Assembly: GCA_019635775.1 (NCBI GenBank)
Contig: JAHBYU010000010.1
Span: 62,001 to 126,000, forward strand
Length of the DNA: 64,000 nucleotides
Direction of reading: 5' to 3'
Origin: Rhizobiaceae bacterium
GTDB taxonomy: Bacteria; Pseudomonadota; Alphaproteobacteria; Rhizobiales; Rhizobiaceae
Position numbers and translations under genes: made by a program. The notes below the pieces were generated by a model that was not told the DNA's origin, searched no databases, and worked only from the letters and a program-made list of their open reading frames with translations. Shown piece after piece: positions 3,167 to 13,763 of the stretch (position 1 is its first letter; every line of letters begins with the position of its first letter).

Positions 3167-4270
3167 ATGCGTCAGCGCGAGCGGAAAGACGAGTCTTTGT
3201 TCCGGGTCAAGTGGTCGTCCCCCTTCCGGCATCTGCTGGTTTTGCTGGCGACGTTAGTGCTGGCGTCGCCAGCTTCGGCGCAGATGCACTGGCCAGTAGA
3301 CGTCTGGGAGCCGCCCTTCGACTTTTCCCGCCCGCCCGGCCGTATCGATTACCGGCCGCTTACGGCGGCGGCGAAGCGCTGGACGATTTGTGCCGCCTAT
3401 CCGCACATCAAGGATCCGTATTGGCTTTCGGTGAACTACGGCATGGTCGAGCACGCCCGTCGCCTCGGCGTCAGGCTTTCAGTTGTCGAGGCGGGTGGTT
3501 ATCCCAATCTGGAGCGCCAGATCGCCCAGATCACCGAATGCTCCCGATCCTCCGACGCGCTCATCGTCGGTGCGGTTTCCTATGACGGGCTGACGCTGGC
3601 GATCGGCGACATTTCGAAACGCATCCCCGTCGTCGCGGCGGTAAACGATATCAACAGCACCGGCATCACTGCAAAGTCCGCCGTGTCCTGGAAGGCCATG
3701 GGCCGGTCGATCGGTGCCTATTTTGCCGAGCGGCACCCAAGAGGCTTGCCGGCGGTCAAGGTTGCCTGGTTTCCCGGGCCGGAGGCGGCCGGCTGGGTCA
3801 GCTTCGTTCAGGCAGGACTGCTGCCGGAACTCCATAACAGCGCGGCCGATATCGTCGCAACGCGGTTCGGCGATACTGGCTTCGAGGCACAACTCCTGCT
3901 CCTCGAAGAGGTGCTTGAGGAGCATCCGGACATCGACTACATCATCGGCAGCGCAGTCACCGCAGACGCTGCGGTGAGCCTTTTGCGTGCCAAGGGCCTG
4001 TCGCGGGAGATCCGCATTCTCGCCGACTATTTCACCCACGGCACCTATCGCGCCATAAAACGCGGCAAGGTTCTGGCCGCGCCGACAGACTCTCCGGTAC
4101 TGCAGGGGCGCATCGCCGTCGACCAAGCGGTCCGCGCGCTGGAGGGTTCTCTGACCGTGCGCCATGCCGGCCCTGCCATCCGCGTCGTCGACCAATCCGG
4201 CATCTCCAGCTTCGGCGTCGCCGATAGCTTGGCGCCGGCCTGGTTCCAGCCAACGTTTGAGGTCGAATGA
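3167..4270 (+). CDS. torT: TorT-like periplasmic TMAO-sensing protein
   Basis: Periplasmic type-I binding-protein fold that hands ligand occupancy to the TorS sensor domain. It has 367 residues with an N-terminal signal peptide (hydrophobic stretch about 25-36, cleavage after ASPASAQ). The mature part shows the TorT-like ICAAYPHIKDPYWLSVNYGM block and a two-lobe periplasmic-binding core. The ATG at 3167 has weak ribosome-binding features. The length is somewhat more than the ~340 of E. coli TorT, mostly in the leader. No torCAD reductase genes follow in this window; they could lie left of position 1. The stop codon coincides with the left edge of the foreign DNA described next. Confidence 0.88.
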   Translation: MRQRERKDESLFRVKWSSPFRHLLVLLATLVLASPASAQMHWPVDVWEPPFDFSRPPGRIDYRPLTAAAKRWTICAAYPHIKDPYWLSVNYGMVEHARRLGVRLSVVEAGGYPNLERQIAQITECSRSSDALIVGAVSYDGLTLAIGDISKRIPVVAAVNDINSTGITAKSAVSWKAMGRSIGAYFAERHPRGLPAVKVAWFPGPEAAGWVSFVQAGLLPELHNSAADIVATRFGDTGFEAQLLLLEEVLEEHPDIDYIIGSAVTADAAVSLLRAKGLSREIRILADYFTHGTYRAIKRGKVLAAPTDSPVLQGRIAVDQAVRALEGSLTVRHAGPAIRVVDQSGISSFGVADSLAPAWFQPTFEVE

Positions 4271-4369
4271 CGGAAGCGGGGCGACAGGGCATTGTCCGCT
4301 TCCGCAAATCTACGCCTGCAACCGGAATCTCCAGCCAGCGATTTGGTGTCGCGCGGCGGTCAAATGCCT

Positions 4370-4623
4370 TTGAAGCGCAGGCAACGGCGACCAAAGAAGC
4401 TCAACGAGCAGGTATCGCGTTGGCCAGGAATGACCCTCGAACGTACAAGGGACGCAAACCGAGCTACACCCGCGCGCAGTTCGACAAGGTCGTTGCGATG
4501 CTGAACGCGGGCGAAGGTGCTTCAGCCATCTCGGCGGATACCGGGCTGACGCGGCAATCTATCCTGCGCATTCGTCAGGATCGAGCCGGCGCGGAAAAGG
4601 CCCTCGCGCTGTGGGGTTTGTGA
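4370..4623 (+). pseudogene. C-terminal remnant of a serine recombinase (resolvase/invertase)
   Basis: The open frame 4267-4623 starts at an ATG that overlaps the torT stop. Its first ~35 codons look like random read-through, and the rest matches the tail of resolvase/invertase proteins: linker RAGIALARNDPRTYKGRKP followed by a helix-turn-helix (VVAMLNAGEGASAISADTGLTRQSILRIRQD). The catalytic serine domain is absent, so the piece cannot recombine DNA by itself. It probably marks the left join between chromosomal DNA and the mobile region. The 254 bp from 4624 to hsdR hold no gene that I can recognise and should contain the hsd promoter. Confidence 0.75.
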
Positions 4624-7913: not shown

Positions 7914-9213
7914 GGAGAGATCGCCAACTGCGACGCTCCGGGAGTCCCTCTTGGTTCCCAGGCTGCGCTTTCCGGAGTTTGTCGGCCATCCGATGCAGGA
8001 TGTGCGGTTGGCGGATGCTACGTCGGAAAGCACTGAACGAAACGGCGCTGGTCAGGCCACATTGCAAGTCATGGGGGTGTCCAAGGTCGAAGGCATCGTG
8101 CCCATGGAGGAACGCATCGTCGCGGCTGACACGGCACGTTACAAATTGGTTCGGAAAGACTGGTTCGCCTACAATCCGATGCGGCTTAACATCGGCTCAA
8201 TCGCTCGTTGGCGCGGTCACGACGAGATTCTGGTTAGCCCGGACTATGTCGTATTCAAATGCAAGGGCGCAGGCCCTCACAGGCTCGATCCTGCCTACCT
8301 CGATCACTTCCGGCGCTCCCATGCATGGGAAGATTTTGTCTCGGAAAAGGGCGACGGAAGCGTTCGCGTTCGCATCTATTACAAGGACCTAGCGCGGCTT
8401 CAATTGGCGCTGCCGCACTTCCCCGAACAACAAAAGATCGCCGAATGTCTGGACTCGGCGGACGCTCTTATTGCCGCGCAGAGGCGGAAGGTGGAGGCTC
8501 TGAAGGCCCACAAGAAGGGCCTGATGCAGCGGCTTTTTCCGCGCCCTGAGCGTGTTGAGAATGGCATCAAAATACCTGCCGAAACCCAACCTCGCCTCCG
8601 ATTTCCAGAGTTTCAGACGGAAGCGGAGTGGAAGGAAGACCTCCTAGGGCGCATAGCTAAATTTTTCAAGGGCAAGGGAATTTCAAAAGCTGACATCCAA
8701 ACGGATGGCAAACGCCCATGCATTCGATATGGAGAACTATACACGCGCTATAATGAAGTTATTGACGAAGTTTACTCAAAAACGAACGTCGAGGAATCTG
8801 ATCTATTTTTGAGTAAGCGTAATGATGTAATTATTCCGGCTTCAGGCGAAACCAAGACTGATATCGCGAAAGCGTCATGCGTGATGCGTGATGATATCGC
8901 ACTGGGCGGCGACTTGAATGTCATCAGGACCGGCCAGAATGGCGTTTTCCTGAGCTACTTCCTCAATGGCCCCAAGAGACCGGAAATCGCCAAGGTCGCG
9001 CAGGGCGACACCGTTGTTCACCTTTATCCAAGCCAACTCGAGAAGCTTCGCGTTCGACTCCCGTCCCTTCCCGAACAGCAACGCATCGCCGATTGCCTGA
9101 CGTCCCTCGACAAGTTTATCGCCGCCGAGGCCCGAAAGCTCGAGACGCTCAAGGTCCACAAAAACGCGCTGATGCAGCAGCTCTTTCCGCAGGTCGGTGA
9201 GGCTGACGCATGA
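7903..9213 (+). CDS. hsdS: Type I restriction enzyme specificity subunit HsdS
   Basis: DNA-recognition subunit with two target recognition domains (TRDs) that set the bipartite target sequence. It has 436 residues. Each half ends in the conserved helical spacer: FPEQQKIAECLDSADALIAA near 167-186 and LPEQQRIADCLTSLDKFIAA near 388-407, each followed by a coiled coil ending in LMQ(R/Q)LFP. TRD1 spans about 20-160 and TRD2 about 245-375. The TRD2 DNA (8640-9000) is clearly richer in A and T than the rest of the operon, the usual sign of TRD exchange. Translation is coupled on both sides: 11-bp overlap with hsdR and ATGA overlap with the next gene. Confidence 0.95.
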   Translation: MNSKERSPTATLRESLLVPRLRFPEFVGHPMQDVRLADATSESTERNGAGQATLQVMGVSKVEGIVPMEERIVAADTARYKLVRKDWFAYNPMRLNIGSIARWRGHDEILVSPDYVVFKCKGAGPHRLDPAYLDHFRRSHAWEDFVSEKGDGSVRVRIYYKDLARLQLALPHFPEQQKIAECLDSADALIAAQRRKVEALKAHKKGLMQRLFPRPERVENGIKIPAETQPRLRFPEFQTEAEWKEDLLGRIAKFFKGKGISKADIQTDGKRPCIRYGELYTRYNEVIDEVYSKTNVEESDLFLSKRNDVIIPASGETKTDIAKASCVMRDDIALGGDLNVIRTGQNGVFLSYFLNGPKRPEIAKVAQGDTVVHLYPSQLEKLRVRLPSLPEQQRIADCLTSLDKFIAAEARKLETLKVHKNALMQQLFPQVGEADA

Positions 9214-10439
9214 GTGGCATCCGAACCTATCAGAACTTGGGCACGCTTGTGACGCGGTTGCGGGACGATCTGAACGCCTCCGACCTGGTGTTGCTTTACG
9301 CCTACAACCGAACCGGCAAGACGCGCCTGTCGATGGAGTTCAAGGACGCTGGCAAGCGCAAGCATAAGACGAAAAACCCGACCGGCACTCCCGACACGCT
9401 CTATTTCAACGCCTTCACCGAGGATCTGTTCGTCTGGGAGAATGACCTTGAAGGCGACAGCGTTCGCCGGCTCCAATTGAATGAGAAGTCATCGTTCTTC
9501 AACGCGATGACTGAACTCGCGCTGGACGAAACGATTGCAGGCTACCTTTCCCGATACGCCGACTTCGATTTCGACTTTACCTACAAGGAGTTTCAGCAGG
9601 GGAAGGAAACCGTTTCCAAACCGGACTATGTGAGCTTCAGCAAAGGCGCAGAGACCAACATCAAGGTGTCGCGCGGTGAGCAGAACATCTTCATCTGGTG
9701 CGTGTTCATGGCGATCTGCGAACGCATGCTGGATGGCCATCAGTCCTATCAGGGCAAGAGATACCTTTATATCGACGATCCGATTTCGTCGCTGGATGAC
9801 AATAGCGCGATCTCCGTTGCCTGCGACCTTGCCAAGCTTCTTCGCCGGGCGGCCACGCGGAAAGATGGCAATGGCGCGCCCGCACCGATCAAGGTGATCT
9901 TCTCGTCGCACCATTCGCTATTCTTCAACGTGATGTGCAACGAAGTCGGCAGACGGGCTGAAGGCGAAGCGAAAATCACACACAATCGCTATTTTCTGCA
10001 CCGTCCGGGCAGCGACGGTGCCTACACGCTACAGGCTACCGGCGATAAGCCCTTCTTCCATCACGTGGCCACTTTGGCTGAATTGCAGCGCGCCGCCGAT
10101 CCCGCGCGGGGAAAGCTCTACACCTTCCACTTCAATGCCCTGCGCAGCGTGATGGAGAAGACGGCGTCTTTCTTCGGGCATCCGAGCATAGCCTTCTGCC
10201 TGAAGGCGCTCGATAACGAGGAGGATCGGGCGCTGTTCAACCGGGCCCTGAACTTGCTGAGCCACGGCGCTTATGCGATCCACGAACCCACCGAAATGGG
10301 CGAGGACAACAAGGAACTTTTCCGCCGTATCCTGCGCGAATTCATTGCGCGGTTCGAGTTCGCCTTGCCTGGCGTTGTCGCCGCCCAACCCGCAGCTCCG
10401 GCGCCCGCGCCCGCCCCAGAAGAGGCACCCGCACAATGA
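9210..10439 (+). CDS. PrrC/RloC-like ABC-ATPase, candidate anticodon nuclease inside the restriction operon
   Basis: A 409-residue protein placed between hsdS and hsdM. Seen: a Walker A motif (AYNRTGKT, Lys37), an ABC-type signature (SRGEQNIF, from Ser154) and a Walker B with D-loop (YIDDPISSLDDN, Asp189-Asp190), the form typical of PrrC, RloC and AAA_13 proteins. The C-terminal third carries Arg312-x3-Glu316 and, 36 residues on, His352 in a LLSHG context. PrrC has the same order Arg-x3-Glu ... His in its tRNA-cutting site and is of similar size (396 residues). The end is a Pro/Ala-rich tail. Inference: a guard that senses inhibition of the restriction complex and cuts tRNA. The alternative is a non-nuclease RloA-type ATPase. 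The sequence supports the fold well and the nuclease role moderately. Confidence 0.68.
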   Translation: MSGIRTYQNLGTLVTRLRDDLNASDLVLLYAYNRTGKTRLSMEFKDAGKRKHKTKNPTGTPDTLYFNAFTEDLFVWENDLEGDSVRRLQLNEKSSFFNAMTELALDETIAGYLSRYADFDFDFTYKEFQQGKETVSKPDYVSFSKGAETNIKVSRGEQNIFIWCVFMAICERMLDGHQSYQGKRYLYIDDPISSLDDNSAISVACDLAKLLRRAATRKDGNGAPAPIKVIFSSHHSLFFNVMCNEVGRRAEGEAKITHNRYFLHRPGSDGAYTLQATGDKPFFHHVATLAELQRAADPARGKLYTFHFNALRSVMEKTASFFGHPSIAFCLKALDNEEDRALFNRALNLLSHGAYAIHEPTEMGEDNKELFRRILREFIARFEFALPGVVAAQPAAPAPAPAPEEAPAQ

Positions 10440-12064
10440 ACGACCAAAACCAAAAGCAGCTGGGCAAGACGCTTTGGAACATCGCCGACACGCTGCGCGG
10501 GGCGATGAACGCGGACGACTTCCGCGATTACATGCTGTCTTTCCTGTTCCTTCGCTATCTCTCTGACAATTACGAGATGGCCGCGAAGAAGGAGCTCGGG
10601 CGCGACTACCCCGATCCCAACGCGATCGGCAATGGCGGGCGCTCGCCCCTATCTGTTTGGTACGCGCAGAACCCCGATGATGTTGAGGCTTTTGAAAAGC
10701 AGATGCGCCTCAAGGCGCATTACGTCATCAAGCCCGAACATCTCTGGACCAGCATCGCCTATATGGCGCGCACCCAGAACGACGACCTGCTGAACACCCT
10801 GCAGGCGGGCTTCAAATATATCGAGAACGAGTCTTTCCAGAGCACCTTCAATGGCCTTTTCTCCGAGATCAACCTCGGCTCGGATAAACTCGGACGGACC
10901 TATGCGGACCGCAATGCCAAGCTGTGTGCCATCATCGCGGAGATCGCCAAGGGGCTCGCGGACTTCTCCTCCGATGTCGATGCGCTGGGCGACGCCTACG
11001 AATATCTGATCGGGCAATTCGCCGCCGGTTCGGGCAAGAAGGCGGGTGAGTTCTACACCCCACAACAGGTGTCAGACATCCTTTCCGCGATCGTGACGCT
11101 CGATAGCCAGGAGCCCGCAACCGGAAAGAAAGAACGGCTCGCCAGCGTGTTTGATTTCGCGTGCGGCTCCGGCTCGTTGCTCCTGAACGTGCGCAAACGC
11201 GTGGGGCCGCACGGGATCGGAAAAATCTACGGTCAGGAAAAGAACATCACCACCTACAACCTCGCCCGCATGAACATGCTGTTGCACGGCGTGAAGGACA
11301 CCGAGTTCGAAATCTACCACGGCGACACGCTGGCCAATGACTGGGACATCCTGCGCGAGTTGAATCCCGCCAAGAAGCCCGCTTTCGATGCCATAGTCGC
11401 CAACCCGCCCTTCAGCCTTCGGTGGGAGCCGACCGAGGCTATGAGCGACGATGTGCGGTTCAAGAATTACGGGCTGGCGCCCAAGTCGGCCGCGGACTTT
11501 GCCTTCCTGCTGCACGGCTTCCACTATCTGAAGGATGAGGGCGTTATGGCCATCATCCTTCCGCACGGCGTGCTGTTCCGAGGCGGGGCGGAAGAACGCA
11601 TCCGCACGAAGCTGCTGAAGGACGGTCACATCGACACGGTGATTGGCCTGCCTGCGAACCTATTCTATTCGACGGGCATCCCGGTCTGCATCCTCGTGCT
11701 AAAGAAGTGCAAGAAGCCCGACGACGTGCTGTTCATCAATGCGGCCGAACAATTCGCGAAGGGCAAGCGCCAGAACCAGCTTACGGACGAGCATATCGGC
11801 AAGATCATCGATACCTATCAGTTCCGGAAGGAGGAGGACCGTTACTCCAAGCGCGTCAGCATCGAGCGGATCGCTGAGGAGGGTTATAACCTCAATATCT
11901 CTCGCTACATCAGCACGGCCGCAGAGGAACTCGAAATCGATCTCGCGGCCGCCCATGCGGACTTGGTCGACATGGAGAAGCAGGTTCGCGAAGCGACGGC
12001 GAAGCACAACACATTCTTGCAGGAGCTTGGGCTTCCAACTTTGCCGTTCCAGAAGGTGATGTGA
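10436..12064 (+). CDS. hsdM: Type I restriction enzyme, N6-adenine methyltransferase subunit HsdM
   Basis: Methylates adenine in the target chosen by HsdS, protecting host DNA. It has 542 residues. An N-terminal HsdM_N helical bundle (WNIADTLRGAMNADDFRDYM) is followed by the SAM-binding motif I (FACGSG from Phe241) and the catalytic NPPF motif at 323-326. A C-terminal helical tail probably packs on HsdS. The ATGA overlap with the preceding gene indicates coupled translation. Gene order R-S-X-M is unusual: most type I operons run R-M-S or M-S-R, and in the E. coli prr locus the nuclease gene sits between S and R. It is the last gene of the operon; no clear terminator was seen just after it. 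Confidence 0.95.
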   Translation: MNDQNQKQLGKTLWNIADTLRGAMNADDFRDYMLSFLFLRYLSDNYEMAAKKELGRDYPDPNAIGNGGRSPLSVWYAQNPDDVEAFEKQMRLKAHYVIKPEHLWTSIAYMARTQNDDLLNTLQAGFKYIENESFQSTFNGLFSEINLGSDKLGRTYADRNAKLCAIIAEIAKGLADFSSDVDALGDAYEYLIGQFAAGSGKKAGEFYTPQQVSDILSAIVTLDSQEPATGKKERLASVFDFACGSGSLLLNVRKRVGPHGIGKIYGQEKNITTYNLARMNMLLHGVKDTEFEIYHGDTLANDWDILRELNPAKKPAFDAIVANPPFSLRWEPTEAMSDDVRFKNYGLAPKSAADFAFLLHGFHYLKDEGVMAIILPHGVLFRGGAEERIRTKLLKDGHIDTVIGLPANLFYSTGIPVCILVLKKCKKPDDVLFINAAEQFAKGKRQNQLTDEHIGKIIDTYQFRKEEDRYSKRVSIERIAEEGYNLNISRYISTAAEELEIDLAAAHADLVDMEKQVREATAKHNTFLQELGLPTLPFQKVM

Positions 12065-12873: not shown

Positions 12874-13452
12874 TCACCGTCTGTCCGCTGATCGGATTGC
12901 AGCAATCGAGCACATGCGTCGGCAGCGCCAAACAGGCCCAGCCATTGCCCGCGCTCTGGGTATGGCGCGCTCCAGCTTGTCGGCCTTGTCCGTCGCCTCT
13001 AGGAGGTTGTTCGCGAAACGCTTGACCGCACCGGATTCTGTCTCGTTGCGGATGCGGGCAATCTCTTCGCGAATGCCGGTGATCGAAGGCCGCGCCTTGG
13101 CGGCCTCTTCCTCGATACGTGCAAACACCGCAAGGAACGGTTCGGCTCCGGCTATGCCGACAGCCGGGCTGTTGTCGAAGGGGTTGCGGAAGAAGCCGGA
13201 ATAGATTTCCCGGACCTTGGAGACTTCCTCCCGCAGCTTCTTTTCGGTCTGCTCGACGCTGCCGAACGCCGCCGCGCGTATCACCTCGGCGCTCTCACGG
13301 GCATAGTCCCGCGCCGCGCTGCCGGCGACGCCATAGGCATCGCGGATGCGCTTGATCACGTCCTCGTGCTGCGCCAGCACTTCCTCAACCGACTTCACGT
13401 CGCCACGCATCGCCGTAAAGATCGCGGTGGCGCCGTACCGTTGACGACCAGC
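12874..13452 (-). pseudogene. Probable fragment of a phage tail tape-measure protein
   Basis: The minus-strand frame carries a long charged helical region (from about SVEEVLAQHEDVIKRIRDAY to AVKRFANNLLEATDKADKLE) of the kind found inside tail tape-measure proteins. It has neither a normal start nor a normal end: the frame decays into unrelated sequence on both sides. Identification rests on composition and general pattern, not on catalytic motifs. If correct, a tailed phage once occupied this site. Confidence 0.45.
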
Positions 13453-13490
13453 GCCTCCAGCGTGCTGCGTCATGTGAAAGGCCAACAGCT

Positions 13491-13763
13491 CTAGGCCACC
13501 GACCTGGTGATCATTCCCAGCGTGGTGCACATCACCGCGGTCAACCGCACTTCCGCCTCCATTCTTTCCAATGCCTCTGCCTCCGTGGACGGTATGGGGG
13601 AGACGCCGAGGGCCACCCTTAGCATTTTCGAAGTCACCACCTCATGGGTGCCGAAAGACGCCGACAGATCGAGGCCGGTCTCTCTCACATAGACGCTGGT
13701 ATCGGCCGAAACGGCGGTCGAGACGATGAGTTTGGGAACGCCCGGCGGCAACCCGCTGATCAT
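13491..13763 (-). pseudogene. Unassigned gene fragment (faint Tm-1/UPF0261-like motif)
   Basis: A 90-codon minus-strand frame whose first part (LPPGVPKLIVSTAVSADTSV) resembles the GxPKxxVST segment of Tm-1-like/UPF0261 proteins. The remainder matches nothing I recognise. Between here and 13962 the plus strand holds a stretch (about 13806-13965) that reads as the end of a membrane protein (WFGPGLVAATVIYIWGG then ALLFLLP and stop), also without a start. The whole 12.07-13.96 kb interval is therefore decayed mobile or chromosomal debris. Confidence 0.3.

Follow-up and report, generated by a model that had tools for sequence, protein, structure and literature searches.

The 64,000-nucleotide (nt) stretch of a Rhizobiaceae genome studied here (contig JAHBYU010000010.1, positions 62,001 to 126,000; hereafter the window) carries, inside an intact restriction-modification (R-M) operon, a gene that full-length homology and a conserved active site identify as a member of the PrrC family. 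We consider it very probable (about 0.92) that this gene is the prrC of a type IC operon and that, by analogy with characterized relatives, it would encode a latent anticodon nuclease, freed when restriction is blocked, as a guard against phages. The protein would combine an N-terminal nucleotide-switch domain of the Rad50/ABC type with a C-terminal, metal-independent anticodon nuclease whose active site is made of Arg, Glu and His. Translated from a message that also encodes HsdS and HsdM, the protein would associate with the R-M complex and remain inactive there. Once the R-M enzyme, on unmodified DNA, is blocked by a phage inhibitor, the nuclease would be freed through nucleotide binding and hydrolysis. 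It would then cleave the anticodon loop of a host tRNA, with tRNA-Lys the likeliest target, and this cleavage would stop translation and phage growth. Latency, trigger and tRNA-Lys cleavage are modelled on E. coli PrrC and on PrrC170 of Klebsiella quasipneumoniae.

The family match was far beyond chance. The PADLOC PrrC model matched residues 8-385 with an E value of 1.9e-126, and the C-terminal 114 amino acids (aa; residues 276-389) alone gave 1.2e-33, so the link to PrrC is independent of the ATPase domain. Pfam AAA_13 also matched the protein (E 1.6e-11), and no NCBIfam model did so up to E 1. A first-pass annotation of the window, made by a model from the sequence alone, had proposed a compact PrrC relative with Arg, Glu and His and had called for profile comparisons with PrrC and AAA_13, both of which agree with that proposal. 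As E. coli reference we used a 396-aa protein annotated as anticodon nuclease on plasmid CP057875.1 (locus L087), in which Arg320, Glu324, His356 and Asp287 stand at the positions given for E. coli PrrC in passages of PMC2610378 and PMC3014915, and which scored E 1.5e-147 with the same PADLOC model. End to end, the two proteins are 30.7% identical over 368 columns by BLAST and 34% identical by global alignment. PDB sequence searches (phmmer and profile) with the window protein returned nothing relevant, and E. coli PrrC had a weak match only (9hxn, E 0.027, residues 290-356). A tblastn search of phage records with the window protein gave no match.

Conservation was counted over 102 sequences including the window's own. 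The loci collected were 80 from one scan of genome contigs (the best 80 of 152 confirmed relatives), six on plasmids or in E. coli, and 16 found in a draw of 398 genomes from the window's phylum. A script check located each motif residue named in the first-pass annotation (Lys37, S154, D189, R312, E316 and H352). R312, E316 and H352 align with R320, E324 and H356 of E. coli PrrC and are kept in 102, 102 and 101 of the 102 sequences, respectively; a lack of conservation of these residues in homologues, which the annotation had named as grounds for giving up the idea, was not seen. In the ATPase part, K37 and T38 are each kept in 99 sequences, S154 and D189 in 101, D190 and D196 in 102, and H234, at the linchpin His position, is present in all. 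Residues 66-80 are probably the published 'PrrC box'. A box of 15 residues is named under this term, without its letters, in passages of PMC3014915 and PMC2610378.

The nuclease domain is under purifying selection. In comparisons with 17 of 58 relatives, those 75-90% identical, the ratio of nonsynonymous to synonymous change (pN/pS) ranged from 0.115 to 0.182 for the ATPase part and from 0.065 to 0.182 for the nuclease part. In 43 of the 58, identity was higher in the nuclease part than in the ATPase part. With the triad kept, pN/pS low and identity higher in the nuclease part, a dead nuclease domain would be an unlikely source of the pattern. We therefore discarded as very improbable the idea that the protein is an ATPase modulating the R-M complex without nuclease activity, its C-terminal domain a leftover; the Arg in its P-loop (see below) and a nuclease activity predicted from sequence could be cited for it, but they are outweighed by the (nearly) invariant active site and by the selection on the domain that carries it.

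RloC, another nuclease with the same motif set, was also considered. It resembles the window protein in its ATPase motifs and in the triad order Arg-x3-Glu...His (passages of PMC2610378), and PADLOC PDC-S06 models gave weak matches (best E 3.4e-8), profiles of 727-790 positions being among the matches listed. However, the same passages give sizes of 341-416 aa for PrrC and 658-897 aa for RloC, which is about twice as long as the window protein, carries a zinc-hook coiled coil and lies mostly outside R-M operons, and they describe linkage to a type IC R-M operon as the PrrC pattern. The window protein has 409 aa, within the PrrC range, and no coiled-coil insert, and the longest helix in its structural model spans about 20 residues. 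The PrrC profile was ahead by about 390 bits. On size, lack of a coiled coil and profile score we rejected RloC identity, to which we give next to no credence.

The gene, which runs from an ATG to a TGA codon, occupies the third place in an operon of order R-S-X-M, where R, S and M stand for the hsd genes and X for the prrC gene (Table 1). Its coordinates were confirmed, and its three R-M neighbours were named by Pfam, NCBIfam and PADLOC searches. At E<=1e-10, HsdR had five PDB matches, each to an HsdR chain 1038 aa long. The best was 4beb (E 4.9e-112), and 4be7, which is among the five, is named EcoR124II R protein. For HsdM the best match was 3lkd, an unassigned type I M protein (E 7.9e-114), and the M subunits of EcoR124II and EcoKI matched with E 4.2e-89 and about 6e-12. 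Because both HsdR and HsdM are EcoR124-like, the operon is assigned by sequence to type IC, the class to which published passages also assign EcoprrI, the R-M system of E. coli PrrC. In the ORF (open reading frame) list, R and S overlap by 11 nt, S and X by 4 nt, and X and M by 4 nt, which suggests that the genes are translationally coupled. Location between hsdS and hsdM, unlike the hsdS-hsdR location in EcoprrI, and overlap of the genes had both been noted in the first-pass annotation, correctly. A search for sigma-70-like promoters between 4200 and 12600 found 0, against 2.1 expected by shuffles.

Table 1. Genes of the R-M operon and motifs of the prrC-like product; positions are those of the window.
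Feature	Position (nt)	Strand	Evidence
hsdR, type IC-like restriction subunit, 1011 aa	4878..7913	+	Pfam HSDR_N, SWI2_SNF2, EcoR124_C
hsdS, specificity subunit, 436 aa	7903..9213	+	Pfam Methylase_S, two stretches; PADLOC Specificity_I E 7.6e-96
prrC-like gene, ABC-type ATPase and predicted C-terminal anticodon-nuclease domain, 409 aa	9210..10439	+	PADLOC PrrC; E. coli PrrC alignment
Walker A / P-loop AYNRTGKT, residues 31-38	9300..9323	+	script check; L087 alignment
conserved 15-residue stretch, residues 66-80	9405..9449	+	12/15 identical to E. coli PrrC; near-invariant columns
ABC signature SRGEQN, residues 154-159	9669..9686	+	script check; alignments
Walker B / D-loop DDPISSLD, residues 189-196	9774..9797	+	script check; alignments
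predicted C-terminal anticodon-nuclease domain, residues 276-389, with R312, E316, H352	10035..10376	+	PADLOC PrrC; triad conservation; AlphaFold2 model
hsdM, type IC-like methyltransferase subunit, 542 aa	10436..12064	+	Pfam HsdM_N, N6_Mtase

The order R-S-X-M, called unusual in the first-pass annotation, turned out to be the rule for one of two PrrC branches. A gene-order script was run on 102 loci other than the window's, a sample biased towards the window's own kind. A prrC gene was present in 101 of them; its setting is R-S-X-M in 77 and M-S-X-R in 9, and the remaining 15 loci are odd or truncated at the edge of a contig. The 77 include two duplicates with identical proteins (L084 of L008, L120 of L014), and L049 was not counted as M-S-X-R, its sole R being 29% identical and about 5 kb away. 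These numbers rule out that the order is found only in the window. The draw of 398 genomes yielded 17 positives, namely the window, 7 further R-S-X-M loci, 7 M-S-X-R loci, a truncated locus (S-X-M) and a decayed fragment next to hsdR. In a quick, unrooted maximum-likelihood tree of 100 rows (the short L067 and L110 were left out), for which the program warned of long branches that meet, the 9 M-S-X-R proteins are set apart by a long branch with full support, and gene order requires a single change among the 98 labelled rows. A 4-nt overlap joins S and X in 67 of the 81 loci of the R-S-X-M group with an S gene beside X, and X and hsdM in 63 of 90; in all 9 M-S-X-R loci, no more than 38 nt lie between the end of hsdS and the beginning of X. 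Thus, as a rule, the nuclease gene directly follows hsdS in both orders. It is a frequent but optional part of the operon, since locus L141 is a related R-S-M operon without it (R 70%, M 72%) and since, of the 13 genomes of the draw that encode a closely matching HsdM (E 1e-150 or lower), 9 are among the 17 PrrC-positive ones.

The reading of the window gene as prrC is supported by PrrC170, in which the same arrangement of genes is experimentally active. According to passages of its description (Nat Commun 2024, PMC11555353), PrrC170 was cloned as HsdR-HsdS-PrrC-HsdM with 300 nt before HsdR, blocks phages T1 and T7, targets tRNA-Lys and is 35% identical to E. coli PrrC. It shares the four-gene order with the window operon. 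Identity to E. coli PrrC is 31-37% for five R-S-X-M proteins and 46-57% for the M-S-X-R protein of Klebsiella (L088); gene order and the 35% figure therefore place PrrC170 in the R-S-X-M branch, and the window PrrC belongs to a branch already sampled by experiment. An R-S-X-M protein of K. quasipneumoniae (L143) is 46-51% identical to the window protein. E. coli PrrC itself, of the EcoprrI type, is like the window protein an ABC ATPase with an Arg-Glu-His nuclease encoded directly after hsdS, but differs in the order M-S-prrC-R (M-S-C-R for EcoprrI in passages of a T4 review, PMC3014915), in sequence (31-34% identity), in the Gly of its P-loop and in its recognition segment. Passages of PMC3014915 and PMC2610378 describe the triad of E. 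coli PrrC, how the protein is kept latent in EcoprrI and how T4 Stp releases it.

Closer relatives have PrrC proteins 88-90% identical to that of the window. Devosia limi (L003) and plasmid pTM1 of Tistrella mobilis (L008/L084) have R-S-X-M with the same 4-nt overlaps, and plasmid p17 of Sediminicoccus rosea (L145) shows S-X-M, its R lying outside the fetched stretch. Among close R-S-X-M relatives, HsdS changes from locus to locus. Over 69 of 76 loci (7 incomplete ones and the duplicates were excluded), the divergence of X followed that of R (r 0.73) and M (r 0.65) more closely than that of S (r 0.36), which speaks for the prrC reading. The tightest pair was R with M (r 0.90); S was loosely tied to all, with a median pairwise HsdS identity of 32%.

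The first-pass annotation had further described a variant Walker A motif. The P-loop reads AFNGTGKT in E. coli PrrC, from which that of the window differs by a Phe/Tyr exchange and by Gly to Arg. The latter change is real, but the motif is less deviant than claimed: position 34 is Arg in 73 of the 102 sequences, Gly in 25, Ser in 1 and a gap in 3, and the Arg/Gly switch requires one change on the quick tree. Arg34 is therefore a branch-wide variant and not a local oddity. Gly is found in the enterobacterial relatives L083, L085 and L086, in contrast to the Arg of the window.

The choice of tRNA was examined in the segment that in E. coli PrrC, at residues 284-294, binds the anticodon arm and contacts the wobble base through Asp287 (passages of PMC3014915). 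The corresponding window residues, 276-284, are two fewer, and in the large alignment Asp287 falls on Thr277 and window D279 on Asn289, so that Asp287 appears to lack a clear counterpart. The segment also differs between the branches, reading mostly D-T-P-F-F-H-H in that of the window (D-K-P-F-F-H-H in the window itself) versus S-F-S-Y-H or P-F-S-Y-H. These differences mean that the target may not be tRNA-Lys bound in the manner of E. coli PrrC. It is possible, though we think it less likely than not, that the protein is a PrrC-like guard cutting a different tRNA, or a tRNA-Lys whose wobble base is modified differently, as would fit the statement in passages of PMC3014915 that the region varies among PrrC proteins and substrates may vary. 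Conversely, D279, kept in 87 of 91 proteins of the R-S-X-M branch, could stand for Asp287 with a two-residue gap. Because PrrC170, with the same gene order and at 35% identity to the E. coli protein, targets tRNA-Lys, this tRNA would be the most likely target by analogy. Host tRNA-Lys genes with UUU and CUU anticodons are among 30 of 44 tRNA matches listed.

Several points weigh against a latent, functional anticodon nuclease in the window. The first comes from structure prediction with AlphaFold2 (AF2), for which the alignments used 58 relatives of 80 fetched loci. The model of the whole protein, from 59 sequences, had a mean predicted local distance difference test score (pLDDT) of 82.3, and Foldseek gave Rad50, RecN and SMC-type heads a high rank, in keeping with the ATPase part (query template-modelling score, TM-score, of 0.30 or less among 50 of 917 matches listed; aligned range not given). 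Modelled alone, the nuclease domain was all-helical with five helices (mean pLDDT 86.6), and Foldseek returned no significant match for it, HEPN or other. The highest TM-score among 50 of 133 matches listed, 0.47-0.48, belonged to the HEPN protein 4nqf at a non-significant E of 5.9; PrrC is assigned to HEPN in passages of PMC3710099. On the question raised in the first-pass annotation, whether the C-terminal third aligns with such a nuclease, this part matches PrrC by sequence and gave no significant match by structure. Furthermore, the recognition segment is different from that of E. coli PrrC and shorter, and Arg takes the place of a P-loop Gly present in each of the 9 M-S-X-R members. E. 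coli PrrC loses its activity when universally conserved Walker A residues are mutated (passages of PMC3014915), but the window P-loop retains G36, K37 and T38. One homologue, from a metagenome-assembled genome of Planctomycetota (L030), has Arg at the position of H352, the sole case in the set of a replaced catalytic His; either this copy is naturally inactive or its sequence contains an error. Finally, the activity of the window protein is a prediction from its sequence.

Other genes accompany prrC in some loci. A RhuM-family gene (331-338 aa; 69-92% alike in the pairs listed; identity by Pfam PF13310 tested for L028) lies beside it in 11 loci, between X and M in L028, L032, L042, L043, L045, L055, L057, L061 and L074 and between S and X in L117 and L119; the link of RhuM with PrrC-like genes is already published (passages of PMC3710099). 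Further inserts were named by Pfam as YhcG nuclease (L056), Fic (L079), DUF3800 (L039), BRO (L108) and UPF0149 (L078). On IncC/IncA plasmid copies, two extra genes separate hsdR and hsdS (E. coli L083, 1946-5730; Klebsiella L143, 3967-7754), annotated in Klebsiella as a TrlF-like ATPase and an RNA-binding-domain protein. The E. coli prrC operon of L087, on an IncY plasmid, is adjoined by a gene annotated 3'-phosphatase (10462-10968, - strand). By analogy with T4, which according to published passages counters PrrC with an enzyme having 3'-phosphatase activity, it might be a tRNA-repair partner. In L121, a nuclease-gene fragment adjoins an hsdR that shares 78% identity with the hsdR of L087, apparently a prrC decaying next to a kept restriction gene.

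Directly upstream of hsdR in the window, a short ORF (4267-4623, + strand) has a resolvase helix-turn-helix (Pfam HTH_7, E 1.3e-7), and Pfam reported no catalytic domain for it; it is possibly a trace of how the operon arrived. In the Sediminicoccus plasmid locus, a recombinase gene likewise adjoins hsdM. Of two ORFs downstream of hsdM (12874-13763, - strand), one has no Pfam match and the other, of 90 aa, matches UPF0261 in part and below the cut-off; they are perhaps gene remnants at an insertion edge. A search for the empty site in 3 other genomes of the genus found one relative (46%) of the upstream gene and none of the downstream gene. Elsewhere in the window, Rfam identified an ALIL pseudoknot (RF01497, 24705-24821, + strand, 120 bits) and a ybhL leader (RF00520, 42244-42305, + strand, 55 bits). 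The ALIL pseudoknot is a frameshift signal of insertion sequences, and its presence suggests such an element at that place.

Among guards of restriction systems, PrrC is the classic example, presented through EcoprrI in the review passages available. In the window's phylum, the R-S-X-M branch appears to be about as common as M-S-X-R (7 other intact loci versus 7 in the 398 genomes), and in the literature found it has been sampled by experiment once, as PrrC170. Our literature search, which mostly did not extend to subscription papers, found no paper describing the two orders as two PrrC branches. The residual interest lies in the branch-wide differences in the P-loop and the recognition segment. 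We suggest, tentatively and at rather less than even odds, that R-S-PrrC-M is an old, separate branch with its own nucleotide switch, marked in most members by the Arg P-loop, and its own tRNA-recognition surface. If so, its trigger and target would be unlike those of EcoprrI, whereas the guard principle would be the same. The natural Arg and Gly members are material for studying the nucleotide switch of these nucleases.

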